Below are positions 1-36,900 of a stretch of DNA of 64,000 nucleotides, piece after piece. Numbering within the stretch: the first letter of the stretch is position 1; every line of letters begins with the position of its first letter. Under the pieces are notes generated by a model. That model worked only from the letters and a program-made list of their open reading frames with translations, made no database searches and was not told where the DNA came from. Source of the stretch: Escallonia rubra (Eukaryota > Streptophyta > Magnoliopsida > Escalloniales > Escalloniaceae); contig JAVXUO010001587.1 of assembly GCA_033065855.1 (NCBI GenBank), forward strand, positions 632,501 to 696,500, given 5' to 3'. Made by a program: the position numbers and the translations under genes.

Positions 1-1863
1 CACATGTTTGAGTATGATCATGCTATAGTATATAGTGTTGTTTTTTACATTTCAAATTTGTTGATTTTGTTTATGTTCTTAATTTTGGCAGTTTAATTAA
101 TTTTTAATGGACTTCAATTCTCACACCATTTGTCTTATTCATTATTCTTTTGTCTGAGTTGGTCGACGCACATGTTCATACATATTCCATGTATAACTTG
201 TTTATTTATTTATTTATTAAATAAAAGATGTGAATGCATTACAGTCGATCGCCATGCGGCAGTAGCTCTGATAACAATAATCCTTGGCATCCTCTCAACA
301 ACCTAATCATGGGCTGCAGAAGAAGTTGATTCTCTACGTTTGTAATTGGCTCTGTTTTCTTTTATCTTTTTCCTTTGCACCAAAAAAAAAAAGCTCTGAT
401 AAAAATACGGCCAATCCTCCTATTCTAGTGCACGTCTTTCGAGACCTTACATCCTAATGGCGGATCCTTACATTCTAGTTCTGTACGACTGCAATGCTGC
501 AACAGCCTCCGAGAACAATTAGGCGGATCCTTACATTCTAATGGCCTCTTTCAAGACCTTATGGAGTTGACTATATTTGAATACGGTTGACCAGGTTACG
601 AGGAGAGAGAATGAAATGGGTCGTTTTTCAAGTTTTTTTTTTTCAGATTTTCAGTCCCACCTCTATCTCTCTTTCTCTGAAGACCAAACACTTCTTTCTA
701 GGGCTTTGATTTTTGTGGGTTCTTCTTCAAATTGACTTGGTTGAAAAATGGCTAGAAGAAAACGAGCATGTGCGAGCATCTCAAGACCCTTGAACCCAAG
801 CCCGAACCAAAGCTCGAGCCTATTGCCGTCGAGATGGACCACGAGCCCTAGCGCAGCCAAGATGCCTTCTTAGACCACGTCTATGTGCAACTTTCTTCCT
901 CCTTGATCCCAGGTTTACATTAGATGTTTGGTTCCCCCTACGAATGTCGAAGTATAGCCATCTTAAGGTGTGTTATTTAGTCCGACTCACCAATTTAAGC
1001 AACATCATTTACCACGCTGACTATGTGCGGTTGCTTTATGCAAATTTGGTCTGGCACACGTCTATTGTTGTACACTCACCTTTATAATTTTTGGATATCG
1101 ATCCCCTTTTACTTAGTCGCGCCTTGCTTCTATTCTAGGAATCCCGAATAGCGGGTTGCCAATTAGATCTTGAGATGATCTTGCAAGCGGGTCAATCTTA
1201 TTCGTTTGATGGACGCTACTCGAATCGAAAATAACTCCAGCATACCCCGCAACGAAGCGATGTAATTGCGGTTAGCGTGAATTCTAAGACCTCCCTCTCC
1301 TCTCAAAACTCATCCCTCGTGTCATTGCTTGTAATCTTATCTTAGCTTCGGCTGTACCTCCCCCCCACCCCCTCCATACCACATGGTTTTCTTCGCCTAA
1401 ACGAGCAAAAGATGCATAGAAGGTTGAATGTCATTTAGCCTTATCATTTTGCAAAACTTTTGCACTATCTTTAAAAAAATGCTACTTACGATTTTTTATT
1501 TTTATTTGTCTTTTTACCTCTTTTTTTGTGCTAAAATTATACTTCGGTGACAAGTATCGATTTTTTATTAAGAAATTATAATAGAGTTGATTAGCATATG
1601 AAAGAGTGAAACACTATCTTCCCTAAATTTGTTTAGCTACCTCGGATGCACTCTCGTGCAACCACATCCTTAACCGCTATAAGTTGAACTCGAATGGTGT
1701 ATGCTAAGAATATATGGTGAATACTTAATGAAAGTGGCAAAAACAACTTTAGCAACGTCTTTTGAAATTGAGCCAACAGTGTTGGAAGCAAAATTATTTT
1801 TACATGAATCTTGTTCGAGGATGCATAAGCTTAACGTTCCTGAACTAGACATTGCATTATGCA
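1..1863. other. Intergenic stretch, no gene recognised
   Basis: AT-rich sequence with short open frames only. A frame at 1701-1931 on plus encodes about 76 residues that I do not recognise; it overlaps the end of the acyltransferase pseudogene and has no visible splice partner. A short direct repeat containing GGCGGATCCTTACATTCTA occurs near 459 and 521. Nothing supports a gene call. Confidence 0.5.
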
Positions 1864-3142
1864 TCAGTTTAGCAAAGGACACGGATCAAGGGATGCGGAG
1901 GAAAGAAGCTCTGGATCGCACTCAAGTATAGCCATTTCTTCTTCACTCAAAGTCACCCATGCTTCGATGTATCCATTAAGAATATTATGTTTGTTAACAT
2001 AGGTAAATCTGCACTTCCGTTGCCAATTGATACCCATATTGGCTTTCCCCATCCAAAATCAGCATCATAGAGACCGCCATTGCACACACTTGTAGCAGCA
2101 TAGTAGTCAGCTCCTGCATTGGAGTGCATCTCGCGAAATTGTTTTATACTCTCAGCGAGCTTGAGAAGCCCTTCCTCTCCTTTTATTTCCTCGACAAATT
2201 CACTGTTAACTTTCGCGATCCCATCCGTTAAACCAGCCACCACTGAGTGCAACTCTAACTCACTATGCGGAAGCGAAAATGCAACAGCCCCCCAAACATT
2301 ATTTCCGATGGTATATTCTGGTAAGGGTGGGGAACACCTATTCCGAAGATTCACCGCGAGAGACAAAACGGATGGCTTCACTGAACCGCCTTTTGCTCTC
2401 GAAGCAGCTGTGGCGCATTTCCAGATGAACGATGTCACGGTGACAACACGGCTTGGGTTTGGTACTGCAGGTGCGGCTTTCTCCTTGAGGGCTGATATGG
2501 CCGAGGCATTGAAACGAATTCTCCTCGTAACGCACTTAGATTGTTTGTGTTTAGAGGGCAACATGACAATTGATGATCCTTTCGCTAGTGAAGGATTTTG
2601 GGGGAAGAGAGAAGGAGCAATAAAACTTGGATATATTTTCTCTGAAGATCCACGAGCTGTTTCTGTCCAAGCTTTTAAAAAGACTGCAAGGTGTGGCCAT
2701 CGACGAGTTTGTGTGAAGTGCATAAGCTAATGGCAACTCCGCTACAGTCGAAAAAGTTTACTTGAATCATCACTAGATATGTTTCTGAGTTCGAGGACAT
2801 GGAATAGGAAGTCGGATAGACGATCATTCACTCGGGTTTGAACGTAATAAACCCCCTCATCGTTACATTCGATGTGTAGCTCATCTCTGATCCTCCCAGC
2901 AAATGGGTAGAAGCGAGTTAGAGTTTCTGATATGATAACGATTGCTTTAGCCTTTGAGACCTTTCGTGAATGGCATCCTCGGATGCAGCATTCTCATTTT
3001 TGGGATAGTAGAAAACCAATGGAGCATATAAATGGGGAAAGAGCTGATCTAAGCCTGAAAGCCTGTATTTTCTGAAATGAAGGGGAGTAAGAGAAGCAGG
3101 TTTGATGTTCTCTTTGGAAATGATTTCAACCTCTGCCTTCTT
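1864..3142 (-). pseudogene. BAHD acyltransferase pseudogene (vinorine-synthase-like clade)
   Basis: BAHD enzymes move an acyl group from acyl-CoA to an alcohol or amine acceptor, usually in the cytosol. Pieces in family order on minus: an N-terminal segment with VEIISKENIKPASLTPLHF and LDQLFP (about 3140-2935); FYPFAGRIRDE and the following 40 residues in another frame (2930-2755); the catalytic HKLVDG, matching HxxxD, near 2710; then a long C-terminal part with the structural DFGWG motif (about 2060), ending SASLDP and a natural stop at 1864. Total span is about 425 codons, normal for the family. Four frame changes are visible: about 5 extra bases near 2930; a deletion near 2750 that joins the segment before NFFDCSG; one T missing in a T run near 2675, just after HKLVDG; and a small deletion near 1970. 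No initiating Met precedes KKAEVEII, and the MULE end lies 190 bp upstream. Substrate cannot be inferred. Confidence 0.85.
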
Positions 3143-3248
3143 CGGTGCCCGAGCTTCAGTCGAAGATGATAACGAACGATGGACGCTGCAAAACAGTAAC
3201 AAAACTCCAAGAGAAAAATGGTATCAGGCCTAAACAAAGGCAGATGGT

Positions 3249-3255
<7 letters not shown>

Positions 3256-3330
<75 letters not shown>
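3256..3330. repeat. (TA)n microsatellite at left MULE end
   Basis: About 70 bp of almost pure TA dinucleotide with a few interruptions directly abuts the first base of the left terminal inverted repeat. A matching tract abuts the right end, so this is probably the target. Confidence 0.85.
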
Positions 3331-3540
3331 TGACCGCGTAGGCAAAATAGGATATCTTGCCAGCGCGATCTGGCCGTCCATATCACTTTTTTTTGCGGCG
3401 CAATCAGTCGTCTGCTACACAGTCTCGCGGACGGATCTTTTTACCATCTTGCCCTCGCTCACCCGTCCGCTACACAGTCTAGCGGACGACTGACAACCTG
3501 CGACAAAAAGTAGTCCGCTACACTGTCCAGCGGACGACTG
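3331..3540 (+). repeat. Left terminal inverted repeat of the MULE
   Basis: About 210 bp matches the reverse complement of 11961-12192 almost base for base. It holds three units of the form GTCCGC - about 11 bp - GCGGAC, with a fourth just inside near 3570-3592. Subterminal palindromes of this kind are often transposase-binding sites; that role is inferred. Confidence 0.9.
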
Positions 3541-4096
3541 TCATTCTGACACATCTGACACAATTCTGTCCGCTACACAGTATAGCGGACAGTATTGCCC
3601 ATTCCCTTTCTTTCAGCACAATTTTCTTCTACTCAATTCTTTCAGCACAATTTTCTTCTCCTTCAGACTCGCTTCCATTTTCAGCTGCCTTCAAGCTTCG
3701 AGTAACACTTGCTTCAAGCTTCGCTCAAGCAAGGTAAGTTTGCTTCAAGTTTTCTTGATGTTCTAGAAATTTGTCACTGTATTCATCAATTTGTGATTTT
3801 ATACTCTAGATTTTTTGTGATGTTCTAGACATGATGTTCATCAAAAAGGTATAATTTGTTAACTTTATATTTAATTCATTATAGTTTAATTCGATTTTTT
3901 GGCATGATGAATTCGTCTATTTATCTTACTAATTTAAATTTGTTATGTTCAATAAATTAGTAATTGTTAATTTGGAGACACTTTTGAGATTATGCATACC
4001 GTATGTTTGCCATCCTAATTTTTAGGTAATATTTTCAGTTAGAAATGCCATTTGATTGTTAAGCGTAGTCTATTTCTACACAGCTCTTGTTTCACA

Positions 4097-6394
4097 ATGT
4101 CTGATTTCGTGTCGAGCTCCAACGTCCCCGCAGATGCTAGTGATCCGTATCTAGGACGAACATTTGCTACGTTGGAAGAAGCTGAAGCATGTTTTCGAGC
4201 GTATTCATTGAGGGTTGGTTTTGGCATTAGAATAAAGACTTCAAGAACGAGCACCATAACCAGAAAGATATGCTCTCGCTTATACGAGTGCCATAGGAGC
4301 AGAAACCCAGTGCAAAATGAGACATGTGTAGGCAATGATGACAGTGAGGACGAAATAGGATATCCGCGTAGAAGACGGGACTGCTTTGAGCGCACAAATT
4401 GCCAGGTCAAGATGTTCGTAAGCTACAAACCCAAACAAGACCATTGGCTTATTACCAGCCTGGAACTGGCACACAATCACCCGTTAGTAACCCCTTCTAA
4501 GGTGAGTGAGATGCATCAACACAAGAAGATGGGTAAGGTCGCAAGGAGCCTGATTCAGACAATGAGCAATGCGCGACTAGGACCTACCGACATGATTAAT
4601 GTTCTTGCTGAACAGGCTGGGGGAATTCAAAATTTGACCTTTAACACGACAGACGTTCGTAACGCGGTCCGAACCCATAGACGAGCCGCGTATGACCTCA
4701 ATGATGCTCAAGCCACAATGAGCCTATTGAAACGGATGCAGATGGAGGACCCGCAGTTGACCTTCGATTATAAACTTGACGACGAGCATCGAGTTAGCAC
4801 AATTTTTTGGGTCGACGGTCGTTCGAGGCTTGCTTATAAGCATTTTGGGGATGTCGTGACGTTCGACACCACATACCGTACCAACAAGTACTCGATGCCG
4901 TTCGCCCCTTTCACGGGGGTCAATCATCATTATCACTCCATCCTGTTCGGGTTCGCCTTGTTAAGGGACGAGACCGAGAGTTCTTTTGAATGGTTGTTTA
5001 GGACGTGGCTGGAAGCAATGAACTTCAAAGACCACAAAGTGATCATCACCGATCAAGATTTGGCAATGAAGAAGGCTATTGCGACCGTCTTCCCAGACAC
5101 TCGGCACAACTTGTGCACCTGGCACATAAGCAACAAATACCCGGAACGGCTGCATCACGTGTACGCAAAGTATCAAGACTTTAAACAGGATTTTGACAAG
5201 TGCGTCCTCAAGTCGTTAACGATTGAGGAATTCGAGGAGAGGTGGGAAAAGCTTGTTCGGGATTACTCATTGCAAGACAACGAGTGGCTCCAGCACTTGT
5301 ACGAGCGCAAAGAGCAATGGATTGGCGTTTACACGAGGAGGTATTTTTCAGCGGGCATGAAAACGACGGGCAGGAGTGAATCCATGAATGCCACGTTCGA
5401 TAGTTATGTGGGTACAGCTACCAATTTGAAGACTTTCGTTGCATCCGCACAAAAAGCGGTAGCTTCGTTGTTCGTAAAAGAAAGGGCTGCCGACTTTGCA
5501 ACAACGTACAAACAAAGGAGAACGTTGCTCGAGACCCCGCTGGAGATGAACGGTGCCAAAGTCTATACGAAGGAGATCTTCTTGCTATACCAAGTAGAGC
5601 TGCGAAAATCCGGACGATATAGTATAAACAAGGTGGCAGAAATGTCTACGCGTGAGTACAAGGTTTATTCGCTCGTGAATGACCTAGTCCCTGAGAAGCT
5701 GCGCAGAATGTATACGGTGAGCCACGACACATTGACGGACTCGGTGACATGTGTTTGCAAGAAGTTTGAGTTCCATGGCATCCTGTGTAGACACGTTCTG
5801 CGGTTTTTCACCCAGAAGAATATCAGGACAATCCCCGATAAATACGTCTTGCCACGGTGGACAAAAGGTGCAAACAGGTTGCACGGTACCATTTCCTTTC
5901 CGGAGCACCCGTATACTGACTTTGAAGAATCAGAGACGTTGCGGTATAATCATCTGGTGACGATGTTCACCCGTTTGTCCGTAAAAGGTGCTGCTACAAT
6001 GGTCGGTTATAAACATCTCCTCGAGGTAGCTCAGCAACAAGAGCCCATCGTCGACCAGTTGGAAGCAGCTTCAGTCACCAATGCGATTGACACCGAGCCT
6101 ACGACGGGGGTATCAGAAGATGACGAGCCGGAGGAGGAAGACGACAATGACATCCGTTTGTTGGATCCAATTATATCGCAAACGAAAGGCCGCAAGAGAT
6201 CTACGCGGATGAAAAGCTCTATTGAAACGGCAACTCAACCTAAAAAGCTGCGAAGGTGTGCATTGTGCAACAAAATGACCGACCACGACAAGCGGAACCA
6301 TTACAAGGCACTAGGGATAAGTTCAAGGGGTTTGCAAGACGGGGAAGAAGGTGACGCCGAAGATGAGGACGAACAAGCTGCAGTGGACCTTTAA
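4097..6394 (+). CDS. MULE transposase with FAR1-type DNA-binding domain and SWIM zinc finger
   Basis: A 765-residue uninterrupted frame. The start is the ATG of MSDFVSSSNVP at 4097; upstream in-frame sequence opens only with TTG. Domain order: FAR1/WRKY-GCM1-like DNA-binding region from about residue 16 (DPYLGRTFATLEEAEACF, then Cys, Cys and His-x-His ligands ending LAHNHPL); MULE transposase core with FDTTYRTNKYSMPF (D257), ITDQDLAMKKA (D319) and GRSESMNATF (E428), giving a plausible DDE triad, plus the conserved CTWHISNKYPERL; SWIM finger CVCKKFEFHGILCRH from C552; then an acidic tail and a C-terminal CALCNKMTDHDKRNH zinc-knuckle-like segment. It should bind the element's ends and catalyse cut-and-paste transposition in the nucleus. 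The FHY3/FAR1 light-signalling factors are domesticated relatives, but here the gene lies inside terminal inverted repeats, so transposase is the better call. No stops or frameshifts were seen. Confidence 0.93.
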   Translation: MSDFVSSSNVPADASDPYLGRTFATLEEAEACFRAYSLRVGFGIRIKTSRTSTITRKICSRLYECHRSRNPVQNETCVGNDDSEDEIGYPRRRRDCFERTNCQVKMFVSYKPKQDHWLITSLELAHNHPLVTPSKVSEMHQHKKMGKVARSLIQTMSNARLGPTDMINVLAEQAGGIQNLTFNTTDVRNAVRTHRRAAYDLNDAQATMSLLKRMQMEDPQLTFDYKLDDEHRVSTIFWVDGRSRLAYKHFGDVVTFDTTYRTNKYSMPFAPFTGVNHHYHSILFGFALLRDETESSFEWLFRTWLEAMNFKDHKVIITDQDLAMKKAIATVFPDTRHNLCTWHISNKYPERLHHVYAKYQDFKQDFDKCVLKSLTIEEFEERWEKLVRDYSLQDNEWLQHLYERKEQWIGVYTRRYFSAGMKTTGRSESMNATFDSYVGTATNLKTFVASAQKAVASLFVKERAADFATTYKQRRTLLETPLEMNGAKVYTKEIFLLYQVELRKSGRYSINKVAEMSTREYKVYSLVNDLVPEKLRRMYTVSHDTLTDSVTCVCKKFEFHGILCRHVLRFFTQKNIRTIPDKYVLPRWTKGANRLHGTISFPEHPYTDFEESETLRYNHLVTMFTRLSVKGAATMVGYKHLLEVAQQQEPIVDQLEAASVTNAIDTEPTTGVSEDDEPEEEDDNDIRLLDPIISQTKGRKRSTRMKSSIETATQPKKLRRCALCNKMTDHDKRNHYKALGISSRGLQDGEEGDAEDEDEQAAVDL

Positions 6395-6544
6395 TTTTTT
6401 GTACAACTTTATGACATTTGTAATAATATTCGAGGGATAATTTTTCGACCGGGTACTGGAATTTTTTTAAAATGGACCTATGAGAGGCCATCGAATAAAA
6501 TCTAAAGTCTTTATTACGAGATTTTTTTTTATTTTGTAATTCCC

Positions 6545-6774
6545 GTCCGCTATACAATGTAGCGGACATCATTGACTTTGGTCTTTTACGTCCGCTATAT
6601 TGTATAGCGGAGGGGTGGCATCGAAGTGAAACTTTTGGTCTTTGTACGTCCGCTATACAATGTAGCGGACGTTAGAGCAGGCAAACTTTTGGTCTTCTTT
6701 AATGTCCGCTATATAATATAGCGGACGTCATAACTTTTGGTCTTCTTTTATGTCCGCTATACAATGTAGCGGAT
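6545..6774. repeat. Five palindromic units between transposase and B3 genes
   Basis: Units with arms GTCCGC and GCGGAC around a TATACAATGTA-like loop start at 6545, 6590, 6648, 6704 and 6752. Spacers share the string ACTTTTGGTCTT with the larger array at 7591-8070, so both clusters come from one ancestor. Confidence 0.9.
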
Positions 6775-6941
6775 AAGTCTATATGATATATATTAATCAT
6801 ATCGGGCAATCGGCTGTTATCAGTCCAATCTGATAACAGTCTCTCTGTCTGGAACATCTAGCCCAGGCCCTCCATCTCCGGCGACCCACAGGTGATCCAG
6901 AACTCCGGCGATAAACCGTCCCCCCCTCAACGCCAACCTCG

Positions 6942-7405
6942 ATGGCTTCTGGATCGGAGACCACCTACGATTTTATTGGCAACTTGCACCTGGCAGGCAA
7001 ACACTTTTTCAAAGTCATGATGCCGGGGTTTGAGAATGAACTTGTACGCCATCCCTCTATCTCTGTATTTTCGTGTGTTAAATCTTTTGGTTAAAAACTA
7101 ACCTATTTTTTGTGTATTGTGTTTGTTAGGACATACCGGAAGCCTTCACCAATCAATTTACAACAATTCATGACAGTGCAAGATTATATAGCCGCAAGGG
7201 GGCATGGCAGGTTGAAATCAAGCTGAAGCCCGGCCGACCCCAAAAAAAGCAATTCGCAGAGGGTTGGAACGTCTTCGTGCGCCAGCATGGCCTCGAACTC
7301 GGGGACTTTGTAGTGTTTGAACACCTTGGGTGGTGGGATTTTGAAGTTGTAATCTTTGATCGGAGCACTTGTGAAAAAATTTCTTTCCCCCAATGTGAAC
7401 CCTAA
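6942..7405 (+). CDS. B3 DNA-binding domain protein carried by the MULE (two exons)
   Basis: Exon 1 is 6942-7043, the intron 7044-7129 has GT...AG ends, and exon 2 is 7130-7405; the join is in phase and gives 125 residues. The protein is essentially one B3 fold: HLAGKHFFKVMMPGF, then LDIPEAFTNQF, then RKGAWQVEIKL, FAEGWNVFVRQHGLELGDF and VVFEHLGWWDFEVVIFD. This is the order seen in plant REM-type B3 transcription factors, which bind DNA in the nucleus. There is no second B3 copy or other domain. It sits between two clusters of the element's palindromic repeats and on the same strand as the transposase. It may be a captured host factor or an accessory DNA-binding protein of the element; the sequence does not decide. 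The intron and intact frame argue against a retro-copied fragment. The ATG at 6942 is the only suitable start. Confidence 0.8.
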
Positions 7406-7478
7406 TTTATGATTAATAAAATAATTTGAGTTCTTGTTGATTGTGTTTCGAAATTTTTCCTCGCTTAATTGTGTCAAC

Positions 7479-7575
7479 TGAAATAGCCTCGATATATTGA
7501 GATACCCTCGATAGTGAATGGTAGGTTGAAATAGCCTCGATATATTGAGATACAGTCGATAGTGAATGGTAGGTT
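7479..7575. repeat. 48 bp direct duplication downstream of the B3 gene
   Basis: The segment GAAATAGCCTCGATATATTG plus about 28 bp more, ending GAATGGTAGGTT, occurs twice in tandem with two base differences. Confidence 0.85.
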
Positions 7576-7590
7576 AATTGCAGGGATTTT

Positions 7591-8070
7591 ACGTCCGCGA
7601 TACAATGTAGCGGACGGCGCAGCAGAAACTTTTGGTATCAACACTTAGAAAAATTTGGTCTTCATTTTACGTCCGCGATACAATGTAGCGGACGGCGCAG
7701 CAGAAACTTTTGGTCTTCATTTTACGTCCGCGATACAATGTAGCGGACGGCGCAGCAAAAAACTTTGGTTTCAACACTTAGAAAAATTTGGTCTTCATTT
7801 TACGTCCGCTATACAATGTAGCGGACGGCGCAGTGAGGACGTTTTGGTTTCAACACTTAGAAAAATTTGGTCTTCATTTTACGTCCGCGATACAATGTAG
7901 CGGACGGCGCAGCAGAAACTTTTGGTTTCAACACTTAGAAAAATTGGGCTTTCATTTTACGTCCGCGATACAATGTAGCGGACGGCGCAGCAGAAACTTT
8001 TGGTTTCAACACTTAGAAAAATTTGGTCTTCATTTTACGTCCGCGATACAATGTAGCGGACGGCGCAGCA
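7591..8070. repeat. 78 bp tandem array built on the palindromic unit
   Basis: Seven palindromic units begin at 7591, 7669, 7724, 7802, 7881, 7959 and 8037. Spacing is 78-79 bp except for one shortened 55 bp unit. Each repeat holds the GTCCGC/GCGGAC palindrome, then GGCGCAGCAGAAACTTTTGG and a CTTAGAAAAATTTGGTCTTC-like spacer. All frames through it stay open, but the resulting reading frames look like by-products. No CRISPR context exists. Confidence 0.92.
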
Positions 8071-8261
8071 GAGAAACTTCCAAAAATTTTGCACCATTTC
8101 GTTTTCCACATTTCAATCATTCCCAATGAGGCCAAAAAACCAACAACGTTCATCAGAAAAATAACACAAATCAAATCACACCAACGACAACAGAAATCAA
8201 CACAAATCAAATCACACCAATGGCGTACGGTTTATGTAAAAAATACTGTTATGATACAATT

Positions 8262-11200
8262 TCAACTGGGGTCCGCATGTTGGGCCGGATTCTCGTCATT
8301 AGCCGGATTTTCTATAAACCTAACCGCTCTAGGCCGGCCTTTCATAATTTGCCAAGCCATTCTATATCTATAGCCTTCAACTTCTGCTTGGCTCCAGACG
8401 GCCGCCTTGAGGCTCTCAGAGCGACAAATGAAATCCATGTACATGCAAAGGAAGACGCCGCAGTCCGAAGTGTTACGTTGCTTGGGCCTCCTCTTCTTCA
8501 ATCGCCTATTGAGATTTGGCCGCGCCGGTACGGGGACATCACGGACACGATTGACCATTGCACAAAAAATATTCTGCGAGAAACAGAAAATGGCGTAAGA
8601 CACGAGTTAAAATTTATGGCAAGATAGAATCAGAGAATTATACAGCGATCGTAATATTACCAACGCGTCCAATTGGGCTTTGTACATGTGCAGCACAGGC
8701 ATCTGATGAGTATCGTCGTGGAGACTGTCGATCACCGATACGACTTTAGTTGTTGGGGAGTAGCAAACCAAGTACCAGTGGCTGTGCCCTAGAAATGGGA
8801 TTAGAAACACATCGGCAACACTTGCGCTCACCGGACTATCCCTATTAAGATACGCTCGTAGGTTAAAGGACGGGCTCCACTGGGCCAACTTTTTCTTCCC
8901 CCTATTTTCGACCCACTCATGCCATTCAGACACTAGCATCTGATGAATAAAGGCGTCGACCATAGAAACGGCCGGAGAGCTCGGCTGCTGCCGACACCTT
9001 TCCTTCAGAATCTCCACGTAGGTGGAGACGACACCGGTGTCTAACCAACTCCCCGGAGCCAGCGAGGCCAGTTCTCCCCACGAGCAACTGTAATCCATGC
9101 CCTCCGGATGATCCACACTATACAACGCTTGGTCATGGGGGACGCCGCTAAAATAACGCTCGCGGGTTATCTGGCCGTGCTGCGGCTCTAGGGGCTTCCA
9201 CGGATGCCCTTTGTGTTATTGCCCTCGGGGGTCGACCGGGGGGTATTGCGCTCCTTCGGGGGGGTCGACGGGGGGATATTGCACTCCTTCGGGGGGGTCG
9301 ACGGGGGGATATTGCACTCCTTCGGGGGGGTCGACGGGGGGATATTGCACTCCTTCAGGGGGGTCAACGGGGGGGTATTGCCCGCCTTCGGCAATAGATG
9401 GTCCTGCCCACGGGACAATGGGCAGACTGATGTTTCCGAAAATCCAGTCTTGCGTGACTTGACTCTGGGAGAGGGGTTGGGGTTCCGAATCCAATCGTAA
9501 AGAGAAGGAGGGCGCACTGTAATAATCCCACGGCGCTTGAGCCTGGCCCATGGTGCTTGGCGGTCCCCAATCACCAGCCATCTCTGGTACAGAGGGAAAA
9601 CCATATCCCTGGCTCACTCCCGAAGTCTGTCCCGAGGGATCGGTGCATCCCTCGGGAACAAACGGCCGCTGCCACCCCGGATAACCCATTCCCGGGTTTG
9701 GCTGTCCCGATGCTTGCCGCAAAAAATTCCCGCAGCCAACCGCCAACGCTTCAGCCTGTTGGCGAAGCTCCTCGCCCATGGCATCCACCAAATCCTTCCG
9801 CTCGCTCAACTTCTGGAAGAAGGCGAACGAGGCATTAACCTACATCCAGAGAGATAATAAATAAGTAACTTCGTACACACTTAGAATGATCAAGTTCAAT
9901 TAGAAGCACTGGTTGGGCAACTTACCAGATTGTATGCCATGTGCTCATCGATCTGACCCCTAGGGTGGTACTTCTCCCCGCGTTCAAACCTTACTGGAGC
10001 TACTCTCCTCCGGGTGATGCGGTAGTACCACTCGTTGTACTGTTCGATACTGATGACGGGGTCAGGCTCCGACACAATGGCCGCCAGCGTGTCCTGCCAA
10101 GAATTCCAGACCTCAATTTCACGCGCGCACAACTCGTGCGCATTCGCCCTGCCAAACAGTCCGACACCCGGTGGGTTCCTGTTAAGCCTCATATCTGGCG
10201 CGCCGGCTGGCAACCCCTGCAGGCAGTCAAAATGGCGCATAGCGCGATCCGGCAGCTGCCACTCTGCGACCTCGAAGTGGATCAGGGGTGTGCGTTGCAA
10301 CCCGGAGAGCGTGAAGACGAACGACTCTCCCACCCGTCGCGCCAAACGTTTGTACGGTGCCCATCGCATCTGGCCAGGAGATAACGAGTCGAGCTCCCCC
10401 GATAGTATGAAATGTTGTGATGGGGATCGTCTCTCCTCTCGTAGTGGGTTTCCTTCCAGCTGTACTCCCAGGCGCACAACCGAGGCCACACATTATCTGT
10501 TCCGTCCCTACGCCTGGGTGCGCCGGTAGCAAGGTGTTCATAAGACCACACCTGAGAGCAAAGACATTGAAAAAAGTATCGTCAACATTTATTGTCCATT
10601 CAACAAAAAAAAAACAACAAAGAGCACGTAATGAAGAATTGTATGATATACCTGCAATAGCGAGAGACATGCACATATCGCTTTGGAGTCGGGCCTCGTT
10701 GCCTTGTGCAATGCTCGGTACAGGTATGCAAGAGTTGCTGCACCCCAGGCATAATCCCCAACCTCAGCCAGGTTACGCAAAAACGGTATATATTTGACGC
10801 TGACCGTGTTCTTCGACGTCGTTGGGAATAATATTGCCCCCATCACCCACAAGAGGAAGGCTTGTGTGTACAGCACAAGGTCATGGCCCGTATAGTTTTC
10901 CGGCAAAACCCCGTAGGTATCTACCAACCACTTCAACTTGATACCACCACTGCTAAATCCATCCTGGGGTACCGAAGTAAAGAAGTCCCTAGCGGTCCTC
11001 TTATTCGTTGCTTCGGACGGATGAGCTATTACCGGCCGCCCCGTCACCGGTAACCCTAAGATGAACCCTACATCTTCTAGGGTAATTGTCATCTCTCCGA
11101 GAGGGAAGTGAAACGTATTCGTTTCACTTCTCCACCTTTCAACAAGGGCACCTATTAAGTGCCGGTCAAGTTGTTGAAAGATCTGCCCATGCGTGAAAAT

Positions 11201-11489
11201 CCCAAACCCAATCCCACGCAGTAATCTTTTCTGGGTTCTGTTCAATTTCCAGGCGTTGAAATTATCGCTTACTTCTACCGTGTTGACAAGTGCTCTTTCC
11301 TACGAATTAATAAATATTATTTAAGCAAAATAAACACTATACAACGTTCGCAACTGAAATACGTAAGCAAAATAAACGATATAAACGATAAAATAAGTAT
11401 CTTACTCCACCATCCCATATGAGCGTACTGATATGGGATGCTTGGTCGTATAATACGGACGAATCTTCTGGTCCAGGGTTGAAATCCAT
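8262..11489 (-). pseudogene. Plant-mobile-domain plus Ulp1-like cysteine protease gene of the MULE (five exons, two apparent lesions)
   Basis: Exons on minus: 11489-11406, 11299-10652, 10551-9926, 9839-8661 and 8573-8262, all with GT...AG junctions. The order gives about 949 codons. The N-terminal half is a plant mobile domain (PMD): DPSVLY-like start, FTHGQIFQQLDRHLIGALVERW, FPLGEMTITLEDVGFILGLP, GDYAWGAATLAYLYRAL, and WPRLCAWEYSW. A proline-rich repeat linker follows. The C-terminal part is a C48 Ulp1-type protease with its residues kept: His in GHSHWYLV (8780-8778), Asp in VIDSL (8729-8727), Gln in PKQRNTS (8480-8478) and Cys in SDCGVF (8462-8460). Such proteases cut SUMO-type tags. Two defects: exon 3 needs one more G in a five-G run near 10400 to stay in frame, and a TAA at 9216-9218 interrupts exon 4. 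Both could be real decay; the homopolymer one could also be an assembly error. Phases fit everywhere else. Confidence 0.8.
9225..9389 (-). repeat. 33 bp coding minisatellite (YPPVDPPEGVQ repeats)
   Basis: About five copies of a 33 bp unit lie inside exon 4 of the PMD-Ulp1 gene. They encode an 11-residue proline-rich repeat that links the mobile domain to the protease. Copy number is likely polymorphic. Confidence 0.9.
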
Positions 11490-11960
11490 TTTTTGCAACT
11501 GAAATAATGGAAAGAGGGCAAGGTTGGAAGCGTAAACATTCCCAAACATACAACGCTAGCATATTCAGCGCTAGCATGTGATCAGATAATACGCAATACA
11601 CATATATAATATATATGTATATACATTGACAAACGCTAGCATAGTGCCTATCTACTTGCCAACGCCGCAAGATGAACTCTAGATTATGAACAAAGTAAGG
11701 ATTAGTTTGTGAACTTACGTGATTGATGAGACGATTAAAGGATTTCTTGCAAAGAAATTGCGCCGATCTACTTGCCAACGCCGCTGGTTTGATCGTGAGA
11801 AGAAGGAATAGTTTGATTGTGAGAAGAAGGAATGAATAGAAGTTTAGAAGGATTGGAATGCTTGCCACCGTCCGCTACACTGTGTTGCGGACGCTGGGAT
11901 AACGACAAAGTATTGATCGTGCATCGACTGATGTGACAACTGTCAGGGGGAAGTGGGTAA

Positions 11961-12192
11961 CAGTCGTCCGCTAGACAGTGTAGCGGACTACTTTTTGTTG
12001 GCCCAAGAATGTCGTCCGCTAGACTGTGTAGCGGACGGGTGAGCGAGGGCAAGATGGTAAAAAGATCTGTCCGCGAGACTGTGTAGCGGACGACTGACAG
12101 CGCCGCAAAAAAAAGTGATCTGGACCGTCCATCCCTTCGGGATGGACGGCCAGATCGCGCTGGCAAGATATCCTATTTTGCCTACGCGGTCA
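11961..12192 (-). repeat. Right terminal inverted repeat of the MULE
   Basis: Reverse complement of 3331-3540 with three palindromic units and one more just inside at 11869-11893. It differs by an insertion of about 22 bp near 12118-12142, itself a small hairpin (GTCCATCC, TTCGGG-type loop, GGATGGAC). Confidence 0.9.
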
Positions 12193-12203
12193 AGGGATCA
12201 GCT

Positions 12204-12206
<3 letters not shown>

Positions 12207-19414: not shown

Positions 19415-22400
19415 GTGGATAGAAGTTGGATACAACGAATGATTGCTCCAAGTGAGATTGGGGTATCGGAAGAGTTTAGACAGGGAGTGAACGGGTTTAT
19501 TCTATTTGCTTTGAATGAACGGGAGTTTGTGGATGATGGCACGATTAAATGTTTGTGCAATGATTGTCAACTGTTAAGTTGGAAAGCCATCGACGATGTA
19601 ACTTTTGATATGTTTCGTAGAGGTTTTATGAGTAACTATACGAATTGGACTCAGCACGGGGAACCAATTCTGAGGGTGCCCACTGAGGTCACCGCTGAGT
19701 TCAGACAGCACAGTCATAGAGATCTAGGATTTTCCCAGTATCAACATATGGTAACGTAAGCTTGGCCGAGTGGGATTAATTGGGATAACTATTTTAACGA
19801 TAGTAATCCTACTGTGGAAGAAGAGCCCAACCCGGTCGCACGAAAATTTTATAAATTGTTAAACGACTATGCGGAGCCGATATGGAATGGACGTACAAAG
19901 CACAACAAGTTATCTGCTGTGACAATGATGCTACTCTAAACGTCTGAGCATGGTCTAAGTGATAGGGGTTTTGATGCTTTTTTTAAGCTTAATTAAGAAA
20001 TGTTGGCAGAGGAGGAGAAGTTGCCTGAAACGTACTATAATGCTAAGAAAATGATGATAAAACTTGGTTTGGGGTACTAGAAGATAGATGCGTGTAATAA
20101 TGATTGTGTCTTATTTTGGAAGGAGAACAATGACTTGAGCGAGTGTCCGGTTTGTGGCCACGCAAGGTATAAACTGACGAGTGGGAATAAAAGAAAGATA
20201 GCATGGAAGATATTGCGGTACTTCCCGCTGACACCAAGGCTTCAAAGGTTGTATTACTCTTCTAAAATGGCAGAGCACATGAGATGGCATAGCAATGTTC
20301 GCAGCAAAGTTCTTGATTTATTGAGACATTCTGCCGATGGAGGCAGGGAAGGAATTTGATTGCAAACGCCCATCCTTTGATGCAGAGGTTCGAAATGTGT
20401 GACTTGGGCTCGCTACTGATGTGTTTAATCCTTTTGGGCACTCTAGCACACCCTACTCTACGTGGCCTATGATCATTGTCCCGTATAACCTTCATCCAGA
20501 CATGTGTATGAAGAAGCAATTCATGTTTTTATCATTACTCATTCCTGGACCTACGAGCCTGGGTAGAAATATAGACGTGTACTTACGGCCGTTGATCGAT
20601 GAGTTAAAAAATCTATGGGAAGTTGGAGCCCTAGCATTTGATGCATCTATTAAACAGAACTTCAACTTGAGGGCATCAGTCATGTGGACTATCAATGACT
20701 TCCCTGCATATGGTATGTTGTGTGGGTGGAGTACACACGGAAGGTTGGCATGTCCTTATTGTATGGAAGTGAGTAATGCTTTCACCTTAAAGCACGTTGG
20801 GGGGGGGGGAGGCTTTCTTTTGGGGTTGTCATAGAAAATTCTTATAGCCTAATCATCCATTTTGAAGGCAAAAAGATAAATTTGATAAAACTGTGGAGCG
20901 TCGCGTTGAAACACGTGATAGATTGTCTGGCGAGGAAGTGTATATGTGCGTAAATGACCTTGACATGGATGCGGTACCATTTGGAAAGTGTGGTGCTAGT
21001 TTAAAGTTCCTGGATTTGAAAAAAACACACCTGGAAGAAAATGTGCATCTTTTGGGAGCTGCCTTCTTGGCCGACCCTCCTTCTGCGCAACAATCTCGAT
21101 GTTATGTACATTGAGAAAAATGTTTTTGAAAATGTGTTTAATACAGCCATGAATGTCAAGGGCAAATCAAAAGATCACTTAAAAGCACACAGAGATATGC
21201 AGGTGATGGGTATACGGCGTGAATTGCATCCACGAATGGTTAATGGTAAGCTAGTTTTGCCCAAAGCAGTATATACATTGGATAAAAAGCAGATACAACA
21301 GGTGTACGAGTGGATTAAATAGTTGAAACTGCCAGATGGCTATGCATATAATATATCACGCTGTTGCAACCTTGCAGATTGTAGGTTTTATGGTCTAAAA
21401 AGTCACGATTGTCATGTATTCATGGAAAGATTTATACCAATTGTCTTTCGTGACCACTTGCCGAAACCAGTAAATGAAGCATTGACTGAACTTAGTCATT
21501 TCTTCCGGGATTTGGGCTCAAAGGTGCTCCGAGAGAGTGATGTTAAGATTCTTGAGGAAAACATTGTTGAGACAGTGTGCAAGTTGGAGAAAATATTTCC
21601 TCCGTCCTTCTTTGACTCGATGGAGCATTTGACCATTCACTTAGCATATGAGGCTAGAGTGGGCGGACCTGTGCAGTATCGATGGATGTATCCATTTGAG
21701 ACACATCCATCAATTACTTGCACACATGCGTTGATTACTAAAATCAATTCTTATTTCTTACATAGGTATAAGTTTGACCTTAAGAAACAGGTGCGAAACA
21801 AAGCCCGGGTTGAAGGTTCAATTGCAGAGGCTTACATCCTTGAGGAGCTTACCAACTTCTGCTCCCTTTACTTTGAGACTGATGTTGATACAAAGATGAA
21901 TCGACTTGGGCGCAATGACGATAGGGTCGTTACAGAATTCGATGAGCGTCTTTACATATTCAAACATCTTGGTCGTGCACTTGGAGCAAGGAGTGGTCGA
22001 TATCTATCTAAGGAGGAGTATGTTGCCGCAACATTGTACAGTCTCATGAATTGCAATGAAGTTGCACCATTCATAGTGTAAGTAGTTGTGTACATATCTT
22101 CCTTCTCATAGTATTCACTAACATAATATAATGACGATGCTATATCACATGCAGTGAATATGATGAGAAAGTGTTATTAGCAAACCCTGGGATATCAGAT
22201 GGACAACTTGAAAAAATACAAAACAACGCCTTCCCTTAGTGGTTTCGACAGCGCGTAAGTTCTAAAACCTACAGTTCATTTCTAATAAATATTGCATGTA
22301 ATAACCTAATACTCTGTGCAAATTGTTTGTTGTTGTAGACCGCCCATGATGGAGTTGATGTCCGTCTCAAATTGCTTGCTGCTAGCCCTAGTAGACTAGT

Positions 22401-30916: not shown

Positions 30917-33900
30917 TCTCTAAAACTGGATCATCAGTTTCAAATAAAATCGTTTAATTTATGATTTTGTGTGTAGATTGAAAAAGCAACTCCGAGCCAA
31001 GTCAATACTTGACCACTTATATTCATCCTCTCCCAGAACAAATTGATTGCAAGCCATAACATAAGTCCACGTGGTTTGGCAACCTGAACCAAACTATGCA
31101 TTCCATTAAATACTTTGCAATACTTGACTTTCTTTTTTGATCTAAATGAATAATTACACTCGGCACTCCTGAGATTTGATAAAAAATAAATGCCGCCAAG
31201 CCTACTTATCGCAATTACACTTTGACCCCTTGTGGTTTCTAGTTTTACACAACCCCCTCCAGTCAGGGAATCCCTAGAAAAAGTTAGGGCATCAATCTAT
31301 TTGTGATGATCTACCAAAAAATTTCCCTTTAAGAAAGCTTCCTCTTCTTCAACACCAACCACTAATGCCAACCATCGTTAAACCACCCCACGATTGTCAT
31401 TGCTACCACCGTCGTCCTCAAGCTCCCCACAGTCGGTGCTATCACTGTCAGAGTATACCCTAACACCCCCACCCAACATGCACGCACACAACTAGCCAAC
31501 TACCATGGCCAATAACCATTCATCGCCGTACCACCACCATCACCACCATAAATAGCTAGCCAATCACCTTGCAAGGAAAGATCCAATCCCACACCTCCAT
31601 AGCAACAAAAAAAAAAACAGCTAACCATTATGGCCAACAGCCATCATCACGATACCTACAACTCAAACTCTAAGCAACACCATCACCATGTCGACAACAC
31701 CGTGGACCTTCAATCCATAAGTTTTGCCAACAATCAAATCCCAAAGGTCATCCATGGTAAAAAAAACAAAAAAAAGAGTTATTGATTTAATATTTGATCT
31801 AATCAGGGGGTAGGGGAGAGGGGGTGTTCGGGGGTGAGTAGAGATCAACAGATTAAGGAGAATCAAGCATCGCACATTCTTCTGCTACCGCTGGTATCAC
31901 CCCTGACATATATGCCCCATATTTTTCACCCACCCCCCTTCGCACCACAACCACAACCAAAACCACACACACGCGCACACCAAAACCTAACCAACAGATT
32001 TGTTCTACCGACCACCGTCCCACCACCAAAGTCATTCCGTTTCCGGTCGCCGTCTCATCACCAAACTCATCCGATTTCTCCCACCGAAGATCCGCGTGTG
32101 TCGCCAGTGGTGGTTTTCCATTAGTGGTGGTGGCGAGGAATTGGTGGTTGTAGTGTAGATCGACAGTGGTGGATTTGTTATTAGTGGTGGTGGCTGAGCA
32201 GTGGTGGTTGTGGTGTAGATCGGCAGTGTTGGGTTCGTTTTTTGTGGTGGTGGCGGGGCAATGGTGGTTGTGGTGTAGATCGGTGGTGGTGGTGCGTTCG
32301 TCTTCAGCGTTGGTGGCAAGGGCAGTGGTTGTTGTGGGTGTAGCGCCTCAAGCTACAGCAAAAGGGAGCTAGCCGTGTGTGATCTAGCGATTGTGGTGGT
32401 AGTAAACTGGTCTGAGCAGGCTGTTGTGGATTTGGAAATATAAATTTATTTTTTTATTAGGGGTATTACCATCTTATTACTAATTTTATTAAATCTGTGA
32501 ATTGAAAATCAAAAAAGTGTAGCTTAGTATAATTTTATATCTAGTGTAGCCATGTGAAAAACAAAAACTTGTGGAGTGCTAGTGTTATTAAGCTTGTCAA
32601 CATCTACTTGTGGTGATATTGACCAAGAACCTCCAAAATGATCTGTATCAGTGGTCAAAGAAAGTCGCGAAAAACAAATAATAATTGAAGTGCACTCTGT
32701 CATATGAGCACATCAAAGAAGGAAACCATTGGTTTCCAGTATATCCGAAGCATCCAAGGGAACAAAAGAAAACAGGAAGACTAGTATGCACCTGTGCAGT
32801 GGTTTTTCCTTTGGCCTTGGCTATCTTCTTGAGCACATCACACTCAAAAATTCTGTTGTCGCCCCATGTAGTCCCATTTGCTCCCAAAGGCGAATACGCA
32901 GTCACATGAATTGCATGTCCCTTGCAGAACTCTCTCAATTCCTTCTGCTGCCATAGTGGGTTCATCTCCACCTTAAAACCAGCAAAGAAACAAAAACAAA
33001 ATACTAAGCAAGAACCAAAAGGAGAAATCTTAAGAACATCACGAAATTTGCCAATACAATTCGATCTCACTTGATTGACTGCTGGAGGAATTTTGGCATT
33101 TGAAAGCAGCTCCTCAAGTTTCTTGCAAGAAAAATTACTGACACCGATCGCCTTGGCTAGGCCCAGATTTTGACACTCTTCCATGCCTTCCCATACTGAG
33201 TGAATGTCAAAGGGCAGTATGTGTTCCCTTGGAACTGGGGCTCCGTTCATCATTGGACTCAACCTCAGAGGCATGTGTATCATGTACATGTCGACATAGT
33301 CCAATTTAAGTTTCCTGAACCCACAAGAAATAGACATAATCAACTAGGCTATCATAAACTAAAATTGAACACCTTGGATATCCCAGCCCTACAAATTCAT
33401 GACCTTCATTTTCTCCAGTCTTCATGATCTCAATGTTGTGTGGTGGGCACAATATAAGTGAAATGTATCTTTGTAGCGGAAATACTTTAGAGTATTATGG
33501 TAGAGGAGGAGGATGTAGAGAGGAGAAACACTCTTGTATAATTTTTCTCTTACTCAATCAACTCATCTATTTCATAAAACTCACTCACTCACTCTTTCAC
33601 ACTTCACTCTTCGGCACATCATAAAATAACTAGGTGATACACCTATTTATACTAAGACATTAAAGACTCTTTTAATATCCTAAACATAACTCCCCAAACC
33701 TTTTCATCTTCCTAATTAATCATTCATAGGTTATGAGTAAGTTCTCTAACCTTTCACTTTTCAGTTTCTCTTTATTTATTCATGTCTTGATTCTTCCTCA
33801 TCAATTGTCATAACTTTGTAGAATCAAGATTAACTCTCAACATGCCCCCTTAAACTTGATTCTCTCATTCCAAGTCGACTCCGTAACTTCTCACAGACTT

Positions 33901-36900
33901 CTCTATTCAGGGGCTTTGTGAAGATATCCGCATCTTGATCTTCGGACTTCACAAACTTGACTTGGACTTGTTTCTTAGCAATGCTCTCACGGATGAAATG
34001 ATACCGTGTATCGATGTGCTTGCTTCGATCATGAAAGACTGGATTCTTTGCAAGGGCTATGGCTGACTTGTTATCGACATAAATTTGTGTCGATTCATCT
34101 TGAATAAAACTGAGCTCCTTGAGCAAACTTCTTAGCCATATCGCATGGCAAATAGTCGATATTGCAGCCACATATTCAGCTTCACATGTTGATAGAGTCA
34201 CTATCGATTGCTTCTTCAATGTCCATGTGAATGTTGATTTACCAAAATAAAAAACTAATTCAATTATACTTTTTCGATCATCCACGTCTCTAGCCCAATC
34301 ACTGTCACTATATCCCACTAATTTCATATCACCTGATGCAGGATAAAATATACCAAGATCAATTGTACGTTTAAGGTACCGAAGTATCCTTTTCGCCACT
34401 TTGAAATGATAAGTTGTCGGATTTTCCATATATCGACTGATATAACCAACTGCAAATAGGATATTAGGCCTTGTGCACGTCAAATACCTCAAACTACCAA
34501 CCAAACTTCTGAACAAGGTCCGATCGATTGGACCTTCTTTGACGTGTCTCGACAACTTATTTTCAACCTCGATGGGGATACTGATTGGGTTACAATTTTC
34601 CATATTGAACCTCTTCAATACTTCTTTTGCATATGCCTCTCTTGCGAGATGAAAATCCCATCATCTATTTGCTTCACCTCGATCCCAAGAGAATATGACA
34701 TCAAACCGATATCAGTCATTTCGAACTCCTTGACCATTTCCTTCTTGGAATCATCAAACATCTTCACATTGTTGCCAGTAAAAATTAAATCATCGACATA
34801 TAAACAGACTATCAAGATGTCACATTTTCCATTCATCTTGACGTAGAGGGCATGCTCATGTGGTCACTTCTTAAAGCCTCTCTCTTGAAAATATTTGTTG
34901 ATGTGACTGTTCCACGCCCTTGGTGCTTGCTTCAACCCATACAGGGCCTTCTTCAACTTTAACACTTTGTCTTCATGGCCTCGAACAATATATCCTTCGG
35001 GTTGTTCGATATAGACTTCTTCATCAAGAAAACCATTAAGGAAAGCTGACTTCACATCCATCTGATGGATCTTCCACTTGTTTAAAGCTGCTAGAGATAT
35101 CAACAGTCGTATTGTTTCCAATTGAGCGACTGGGGTGAAGACTTCATCATAGTCGATTTCAGTCCTTTGCTTGTATCCTTTGACAACAAGCCTAGCTTTG
35201 TATCTCTCAACTTCGCCTTTGGAATTTTTCTTCACTTTATAAACCCATTTTACACCAATGGGCTTCTTTCCCGATTGAAGAGTCGTCAGCTCCCAAGTAT
35301 CATTCTTCTCGATGGCACCAATCTCTTCATTCATGGCCTTCCTCCATATCTTACTTCTTGATGCCTTATCAAAATCGATTGGCTCAGTATCGGCAAAAAG
35401 ACAGAACATGCTTTGGTTCTGGTTTAAGTCATCATAAATCTCCTCCAGAGATCTCTTACCTTGTGGTCCTGTTTTGACAGGACTATCGACCGATGATGAT
35501 GATGGACTCGATTGAATTGGAGATACAGGACTCGAGGGGGTCACAGGTTCAATCGGCTCTTCTTCTAGTTCTTTTTTATCCATATCGATTGGATAGAAAA
35601 CATATTGCTCCTTGCCTCGGTCAGTCCAGTGTTATGAGCTCTTTTCATCAAAAGTCACGTCTCAACTGACTTTCATCTTGTTGTCAACAAGTTTGTATAA
35701 CTTGTACCCTTTTGACTCTTGACTGTAACCGATGAAGATAAAATTCTCGCTTTTATCATCGAACTTCTTCCTTTGCTGATCGGGAACATGCACATATGCA
35801 ATGCTTCCCAATACTTTCAAGTGGGACACACTTGGCTTGTATCCATTCCAAGCTTCTTGTGGTGTTTGATTCCACACACTTCTCGTTGGACATTGATTCG
35901 ATAAATAGACCGCACAATTGACTGCTTCAGCCCAAAATTCCTTGGGCAAATTCTTGCTATTCAACGTACTTCGAGTCATGTTCACTATCGACCAATTCTT
36001 TCTTTCCACCACTCCATTCTGTTGAGGTGAATATGGAATGGTAAGCGGTCGACGGATGCCATTCTCTTCACAGAATGCCTTGAACTCCTTAGATATGAAT
36101 TCTCCACCTCGATCAGATCTCATCGCCTTGATCTGATATCCACTATGCTTCTCCACAAGAGCTTTAAACCTTTTGAAGGTTGAGAACACCTCTGACTTTT
36201 GCTTGAGGAAATAAACCTAAGTTCTCCTACTTTAGTAATCAATGAATAGTAGAAAGTATATGTGCTTACCAAGATATGCTAGATCGATTAGACCATATAC
36301 ATCAGTGTGTATCAGCTTCAACGGTGCCTTTGCTCTTGATATCAACTCATTTGGGAAAATGTATCGATATTACTTCCCGACAAGACAACCTTACAGAGTT
36401 GGTCTGGCTGGTCTATCGATTGCAATCCCTTTACCATATTCTTCATCGATAGCAATTTCAGACCTCCAAAATTGAGATGTCCAAGCCTCAAATGCCATAA
36501 CCAAGATTGATTATCAAAATAGGCCTTTAAACATTTCACCACATCATGATGGATATTCATCAAGAACATCCTATTGCTCAACATCGGAACACAGCGATTA
36601 AGCTCTCTCTATCATCTCTCAGGTCAAGACTTTTGTCTTTCATATCGATGTCGTAGCCTTTCTCCAACAGTTGGCCCATGCTCAAAATTTTTGCCTTCAT
36701 CTCCGGAACATAATAAACATTTGAGATAAACTAGTGGCCTTCATCCATCAATATGATCATAATTTTGCCTTTGTCTTTGACCGGGATTTTGGACATGCCT
36801 CCAAATGTAATTTTTCCCGTCACCGATTCATCCATCTCGATAAACATGTGTTTGTAGCCACACATGTGTTCGTAGCCACACATGTGATTGTTGGAACCGA

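Follow-up and report, generated by a model that had tools for sequence, protein, structure and literature searches.

A three-gene MULE family of Escallonia rubra with constrained B3 and PMD-Ulp1 genes

Is a gene for a B3 DNA-binding protein that lies inside a Mutator-like element (MULE), between a transposase gene and a gene for a PMD-Ulp1 protein, a lasting component of a transposon family or a passenger caught once? The question is raised by a stretch of 64,000 nucleotides from Escallonia rubra (hereafter the window; contig JAVXUO010001587.1, positions 632,501–696,500 of the forward strand), in which positions 3331–12206 form one 8.9-kb MULE copy with (TA)n outside both ends. The initial annotation, made from the letters alone, had read it as a possibly functional transposon with three genes of unrelated families, to be regarded as a one-off if other copies consistently lacked the B3 gene or if that gene proved to be a capture at a single locus. 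We searched the host genome with the left 770 bases of the element and obtained 40 long matches including the window's own (the best 40 of 1,793 candidates), and fetched the first 20 listed of the 39 other left-end places. Across the genome searches the best 40–150 of 1,334–4,797 candidates were scored, which biases their rates of open frames upward, and the 20 loci picked by their left end are a fairer sample than the scored matches. The transposase was full length in 17 of these loci and open in all 17; the B3 gene was present and open in 16, being absent from three deletion derivatives and one contig end; and PMD-Ulp1 had all five exons in 15 and was open in 7. All three genes were open together in seven of the 20 loci (L009, L012, L016, L019, L020, L024 and L028), so that the idea of a functional three-gene transposon finds support in the family, whereas the window's own copy is not intact. 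All 59 transposases that were scored (the best 59 of 4,797 candidates) were full length and open, and an open B3 exon lay ~3.0 kb downstream of at least 55 of them. Exact 32-mers of the transposase, B3 and Ulp1 occurred at 386, 376 and 222 sites of the host genome, mutated copies being missed by such counts, and at none in reversed controls. B3 and PMD-Ulp1 do recur between the same ends at many other loci, and with 376 exact sites the B3 gene is neither consistently absent nor confined to one locus; this recurrence at hundreds of loci rules out a one-off gene capture. Segmental or assembly duplication is ruled out as the source of the copies, as only one pair (L015/L021, alike over 408 bases) was found among 20 left flanks (19 loci and the window); the likeness among the left flanks of L011, L013, L026 and L027 is confined to neighbouring short elements that have the palindrome described below in common. 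The MULE family is a multi-copy one that amplified recently, and the window holds a slightly decayed member.

The outline of the element, about 8.9 kb with long inverted repeats, was borne out by its ends. Positions 3330–3381 and 12142–12193 pair as inverted arms of 52 nt at 100% identity, positions 3376–3490 and 12011–12125 as arms of 115 nt at 96%, and (TA)n follows outside. By comparison with other copies, the family terminus reads GGGAGCTGATCCCTTGACC...; the left terminal inverted repeat (TIR) region of the window copy (3331–3600, plus strand) is without the ~14 outermost bases of this terminus, and the right TIR region (11870–12206, minus strand) is complete and ends in GGGATCAGCTCCC followed by (TA)n. 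The two ends of the same copy were 91–96% identical over the outer 260 nt in all five copies compared; a sixth, L032, has no exact right terminus within its fetched stretch and so does not enter this comparison. Long TIRs of this kind agree with membership of the MULE superfamily. Runs of (TA)≥6 flanked 16 of 18 ends on the left and 9 of 10 on the right, compared with 108 of the 54,900 bases outside the element in the window, an insertion preference for TA microsatellites as in the MuTAnT, TAFT and SaTar MULEs. The 8–11-bp target site duplication of MULEs is masked by (TA)n at most insertion sites. A non-TA flank was observed at the left end of L017 and at the right end of L020, which are candidate places for a target site duplication.

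The transposase gene (4097–6394, plus strand) is an open frame for 765 amino acids. Pfam detected FAR1 (PF03101, 1.3e-12), MULE (PF10551, E 4e-32) and SWIM (PF04434, 5.4e-05) in the frame 4043–6391; the MULE/MURA-type transposase domain places the element in the MULE superfamily, and the FAR1 zinc domain, MULE core and SWIM finger in a single protein assign it, by domain content, to the Jittery/FAR1 type. Compared with other copies, the window transposase carries a pair of compensating 1-base indels. It has no PDB relative at E 0.01, and outside the host no relatives were found in viral_contigs or genome_contigs, as expected of collections without plants. The B3 gene comprises exon 1 (6942–7043, plus strand, 34 codons) and exon 2 (7130–7405, plus strand, 91 codons and stop), in which Pfam finds the B3 domain at 7130–7402. 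The spliced product of 125 amino acids is little more than a B3 domain, complete over positions 1–100 of the 101 of PF02362 (E 1.5e-10); its best solved relatives, by weak matches, are VRN1 (E 0.01) and At1g16640 (E 0.037), which we take to be REM-type B3 proteins.

PMD and Ulp1 belong to one five-exon gene on the minus strand, running from 11489 to 8262 with GT/AG at all four introns. Exon 1 (11406–11489) is followed by exon 2 (10652–11299) and exon 3 (9926–10551) with the N-terminal and C-terminal halves of PMD, by exon 4 (8661–9839) with a proline-rich linker, which contains 33-bp peptide repeats (9227–9391), and the N-terminal half of Ulp1 with its His and Asp, and by exon 5 (8262–8573) with the catalytic Gln and Cys of C48. 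Pfam detected Peptidase_C48 in the window frames 8265–8606 and 8610–9215 and PMD in 9899–10492 and 10592–11299, and the whole protein of the intact locus L016 gave 1.7e-73 for PMD and 2.7e-14 for C48. The sequence of solved SENP2 aligns over the catalytic region (E 4e-14) and pairs the HW, DS, Q and DCG stretches, with the catalytic His, Asp, Gln and Cys of Ulp1/C48; the Gln and Cys are retained in the distant copies L035 and L036. In the window, a frameshift in exon 3 and an in-frame stop in exon 4 interrupt the gene. Of the 20 fetched loci, 16 have exon 3 complete or within two bases, and none of these shows the frameshift; L013 carries other indels there and L022 only part of the exon. The domains of all three genes claimed by the initial annotation are thus confirmed by Pfam, with open transposase and B3 frames in the window, but the PMD-Ulp1 frame of this copy is not intact.

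We further compared loci L031–L036, which were picked for being different and give no estimate of frequency. Three of them (L032, L033 and L034), reached through the internal palindrome, form a sister subfamily that keeps the family terminus, with both ends exact in two of the three; their transposase protein is 92–98% identical by stretch, and PMD-Ulp1 and a continuous palindrome array are present. The transposase of L034 is open. L031 has the B3 gene, with a left B3 junction common to the main family, and its transposase groups with those of the B3-less loci. A deep subfamily is represented by L035 and L036, of which PMD-Ulp1 exons 1 and 2 and the right ends lie outside the fetched stretches; for L036, L037 supplies the same GGGAGCTGATCC terminus in (TA)n. 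Relative to L016, the transposases of L035 and L036 are 93–94% identical and PMD-Ulp1 52–79% by stretch, and B3 is identical at 122 of 125 residues. Between B3 and Ulp1, this subfamily carries two extra small open reading frames (ORFs), one of 153 amino acids on the minus strand (stop to stop; 5019–5477 in L035, 4996–5454 in L036) and one of 144 on the plus strand (5835–6266 and 5822–6253). The two are paralogous (35% identity over 78 residues, E 7e-16) and match no Pfam family above cut-off. The 144-residue ORF occurs at 150 or more places in the genome (the best 150 of 1,355 candidates), and on contigs C1–C857 an exact B3 site lies 1.7–2.3 kb upstream in 35 of the 41 listed. The same contigs, for which the transposase and B3 lists are both complete, hold 88 exact transposase sites, 46 with and 42 without an exact B3 site within 4 kb; of their 99 exact B3 sites, 46 lie downstream of an exact transposase site. 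Overall, B3 occurs in three sampled subfamilies and PMD-Ulp1 in every one. The standing of B3 as a family component is upheld by its many loci and three subfamilies, and qualified by its absence from L032–L034 and three deletion copies. From this distribution we infer a single origin of B3 with later loss or exchange.

The deep subfamily allowed selection to be estimated, main-family copies being too alike for such a test (introns 0–2.4% variable). Between L016 and L035/L036, the ratio of nonsynonymous to synonymous rates (dN/dS) was 0.21/0.20 for the transposase (Fisher 6e-18/3e-16), 0.27/0.26 for PMD exon 3 (p 2e-9/3e-9), 0.52/0.56 for the linker and first half of Ulp1 (p 2e-4/4e-5), and 0.55/0.53 for the last Ulp1 exon (p 0.04/0.02). 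The B3 exons of the window differ from L035 and L036 by 3 and 4 changes in 378 bases, against 55/323 and 32/321 in flanks plus intron (exon contrast 1e-16 and 4e-8); taken separately, the flanks, presumed untranslated regions, are 9–22% different and the intron 5–6%. Low dN/dS and exon-specific conservation of B3 therefore show all three genes to be constrained, Ulp1 least clearly. B3 and PMD-Ulp1, conserved beyond what is expected of neutral passengers, look like maintained transposon genes. Synonymous changes in B3 number 0 and 1 of ~76 sites, against a synonymous rate (dS) of 0.16 and 0.14 in the transposase and 0.40–0.54 in PMD-Ulp1; gene conversion, module exchange or synonymous-site constraint may account for this. 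Comparison with L031 was weak or uninformative (transposase dS 0.034, dN/dS 0.42; three B3 changes, all of them nonsynonymous; frameshifts in PMD exons 3 and 4). For the small ORFs, L035 and L036 differ by 4 synonymous and 1 nonsynonymous changes on the minus strand (p 0.008) and by 0 and 3 on the plus strand, where no signal of constraint was found. These results show a three-gene, and in the deep subfamily five-gene, MULE family with constrained B3 and PMD-Ulp1.

The genes are interspersed with a 23-bp palindrome, GTCCGC-N11-GCGGAC, which occurs 20 times in the element at up to one mismatch, always with a spacing of 11, where mononucleotide shuffles give 0.03 at that spacing; the other 55 kb of the window hold none, even at up to two mismatches. 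The sites form four clusters: four in the left end region (3410, 3465, 3513 and 3568), four in the right (11870, 11966, 12014 and 12069), five in the 400 bp upstream of B3 (6545–6774, between the transposase stop and the B3 start), and seven in 55/78-bp tandem units (7593–8061) in the gap between the convergent B3 and Ulp1 3′ ends. None lies in an exon, although exons make up ~62% of the element. The last array varies in length among copies, the window having 7 sites and L017 as many as 25. In 579 sites, which represent 81 distinct 23-mers, inner columns 8/16 and 10/14 show symmetry and hardly vary, while columns 9/15 and 11/13 vary without complementarity. Selection for a hairpin or cruciform was rejected, as no more than 45, 33 and 40 of the 81 sequences have complementary bases at the pairs 7/17, 9/15 and 11/13, respectively; the column pattern fits the site of a dimeric protein rather than a hairpin. 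Exact counts across the genome reach 3,118 for a variant centre (TACATWATGTA) and 2,405 for the internal type; reversed controls gave 0. The B3-less loci L032–L034 keep 12–14 internal and 4+4 terminal palindromes. L029 contains two relatives of ~1.6 kb, joined end to end in (TA)n, that match none of the three proteins and carry about four palindromes at each end. The left flanks of L011, L013, L026 and L027, like L029, contain stacks of short elements in (TA)n that share this palindrome and have similar ends; four of the stacks adjoin large elements.

How could these parts work together? The reading that we prefer, at a probability of roughly 0.6, is an autonomous (TA)n-targeting Jittery/FAR1-type MULE family with palindromes read by an element-encoded protein, a PMD-Ulp1 akin to VANC/KIU proteins, and B3 as an added regulator. 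The transposase would excise and insert the element through its ends, and the palindromes would be bound by an element-encoded dimeric DNA-binding protein. Because the B3-less loci and the L029 relatives keep their sites, this putative binder was ancestrally more probably the transposase or PMD-Ulp1 than B3. PMD-Ulp1 may act as the VANC and KIU proteins of VANDAL elements do, keeping the non-coding regions of the element unsilenced or releasing them from silencing. B3, which consists of a DNA-binding domain alone and lies inside the array, could tune transcription or oppose silencing in trans; it is absent from three sister-subfamily loci and therefore not needed in cis. Several observations weigh against this picture. 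B3 is missing from all three sampled sister loci (L032–L034) and from the deletion copies L025–L027, and PMD-Ulp1 is open in fewer than half (7 of 15) of the fetched loci with all its exons. The transposases of L032 and L033 match in two frames, those of L035 and L036 have one in-frame stop each, and PMD-Ulp1 of L031 is frameshifted. DUF1985, a domain of VANC proteins, reached E 0.025 on one exon only, and the search with the whole protein did not list it at E ≤ 0.1. VANDALs are non-TIR MULEs (PMC5735166, PMC10398659, PMC13317346, as far as their accessible text goes), and the element here has long TIRs; with TIRs present and DUF1985 not significant, it is not a VANDAL. The observed/expected CpG ratio is 1.04 in the element and 0.69 in the remainder of the window, but 2-kb windows outside the element span 0.37 to 1.2, and a high ratio is equally expected of a young insertion, so that it fits low methylation or youth alike.

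The palindromes may instead be plain subterminal or regulatory binding sites of the transposase, with B3 and PMD-Ulp1 acting on host genes or chromatin. This is a real possibility, on which we would nevertheless not bet: the sites occur in the examined members with related termini, including short ones that need only transposase in trans, and the transposase has a FAR1 DNA-binding domain, but internal arrays of up to 25 sites far from the ends would be expected to draw transposase away, and the intergenic array should not be needed for excision. That B3 itself binds the palindromes, controlling transcription of the element and removing silencing in the manner of VANC or TnpA, and serving B3-less and non-coding relatives in trans, appears doubtful. 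B3 is the sole accessory protein consisting only of a known DNA-binding domain, it lies inside the array with sites just upstream and downstream, and no other coding sequence of the three genes is as conserved as its exons; the sister loci nevertheless retain internal and terminal sites without it, and the short L029 relatives retain sites at their ends. Both observations weaken the proposal, though reliance of these elements on B3 in trans is conceivable. A wider version, in which the family has a private palindrome-based regulatory system, with genes gained and lost in the array, so that it holds B3, B3 plus the two small paralogous proteins, or none of them, and with the single-domain B3, together with or instead of PMD-Ulp1, reading the sites in trans to defeat silencing across the family and its short relatives, is unlikely on the present evidence. 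If true, it would make B3 another, independent fold for sequence-specific transposon anti-silencing.

Two further explanations concern the origin of the accessory genes rather than the palindromes. A Pack-MULE is a non-autonomous element carrying host gene fragments, and B3 and PMD-Ulp1 might be such captured hitch-hikers without a role in transposition. Capture of gene fragments is frequent in MULEs (PMC2528002, in the portion available), B3 is missing in L032–L034, and the PMD-Ulp1 frame is interrupted in 8 of the 15 fetched loci that have all five exons. The element, however, encodes its own transposase, both accessory genes are spliced with complete domains in hundreds of copies and several subfamilies, and the selection tests, through the exon-specific conservation of B3 and a PMD dN/dS well below 1, disfavour capture, which we hold to be highly improbable. 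It is more conceivable, if still rather questionable, that recombination spread B3 between subfamilies and that its low divergence reflects gene conversion and not constraint. The near absence of synonymous changes despite the transposase dS of 0.14–0.16 in the same elements speaks for it, as does L031, which has B3 with a transposase of the B3-less group; the divergence of flanks and intron speaks against it, indicating that the unit is old and that the exons alone are near-identical.

Beyond the element, a reading frame of the Transferase family (PF02458, 1e-30) lies just outside its left end (1956–2726, minus strand). Elsewhere the window contains a DUF4218 fragment (21323–22078, plus strand), an aldo/keto reductase exon (32651–33343, minus strand) and an RVT_2 reverse transcriptase fragment (34867–35631, minus strand).

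The family touches the question of how widespread VANC-like transposon-encoded systems are in plants, VANC being, to our knowledge, the best-described plant transposon-encoded sequence-specific anti-silencing factor. The evolutionary preservation of a small DNA-binding protein and a protease fusion suggests a transposon that carries its own regulators. Copies in which every frame is open, subfamilies that naturally have or lack B3, copies with B3 deleted and thousands of additional palindrome sites are all available in one genome. Among known systems, En/Spm resembles the element in having subterminal repeats that are bound by an element-encoded regulator, TnpA, which also affects promoter methylation; it differs in belonging to the CACTA superfamily, with an unrelated transposase and binding domain. 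The roles of B3, PMD-Ulp1 and the palindrome are directly testable in the host, as is the anti-silencing role speculated for MULE-borne PMDs (PMC5418596).

Parts of this arrangement are already in print, as judged from the accessible portions of the papers cited here. Jittery-like MULEs that target (TA)n have been described as MuTAnT/AutoMuTAnT in Medicago truncatula (PMC4486113), which share with our element long modular TIRs, a Jittery-like transposase, (TA)n insertion and termini that start with a run of G; AutoMuTAnT, in contrast, is 4.9 kb long with a single transposase ORF, and the available text mentions none of B3, PMD and Ulp1. Arrays of microsatellite-targeted MULEs are known from SaTar and the autonomous gSaTar-MULEs of guayule and rice (PMC5907723), which form end-to-end stacks within microsatellites together with non-autonomous relatives, the situation seen at L011, L013, L026, L027 and L029; accessory genes and a shared palindrome go unmentioned in that portion. 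In grapevine and melon, Jittery-like and other MULEs carry a ULP coding sequence after a Jittery-like transposase, in either orientation (PMC2528002), a PMD fusion or B3 gene being absent from the text covered. The MULE-encoded PMD-C (PMC5418596) likewise places a PMD in a MULE, with an anti-silencing role speculated there, but is fused to the transposase in grasses and Amborella, whereas the PMD here is fused to Ulp1 in a separate gene. That transposon-linked PMDs and MULEs with ULP1 are known had also been said in the initial annotation, and these two reports agree. With both already published, the novelty therefore lies in the presence of B3, in the arrays of palindromes and in an accessory set that is modular. 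No MULE with a B3 gene appeared among the papers listed by the literature searches, whose coverage leaves out most subscription journals; to that extent, B3 as a retained module, its adjoining PMD-Ulp1 fusion, the shared arrays of palindromes and the swapping of accessory genes inside these arrays are new.

The likeness is close with VANDAL21 and VANDAL6 and their VANC proteins (PMC5735166, PMC10398659), again taken from partial texts. These elements also encode accessory proteins and have a short motif that is concentrated in non-coding tandem repeats, themselves variable from copy to copy; VANC proteins combine conserved domains with variable peptide repeats, as PMD-Ulp1 does with its variable repeat linker; and KIU VANCs carry an Ulp1 domain (PMC13317346), which here is fused to PMD. 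The VANC motifs are 8–9 nt long against the 23-bp palindrome here, and B3 is unmentioned for VANDALs in the accessible text of these reports (PMC5735166, PMC10398659, PMC13317346). Anti-silencing has been shown for VANDAL/VANC in the same reports, whereas in our element it would follow from the likeness. Taken as a whole, the arrangement of accessory proteins and clustered non-coding sites appears to be a close parallel to VANDAL/VANC anti-silencing.

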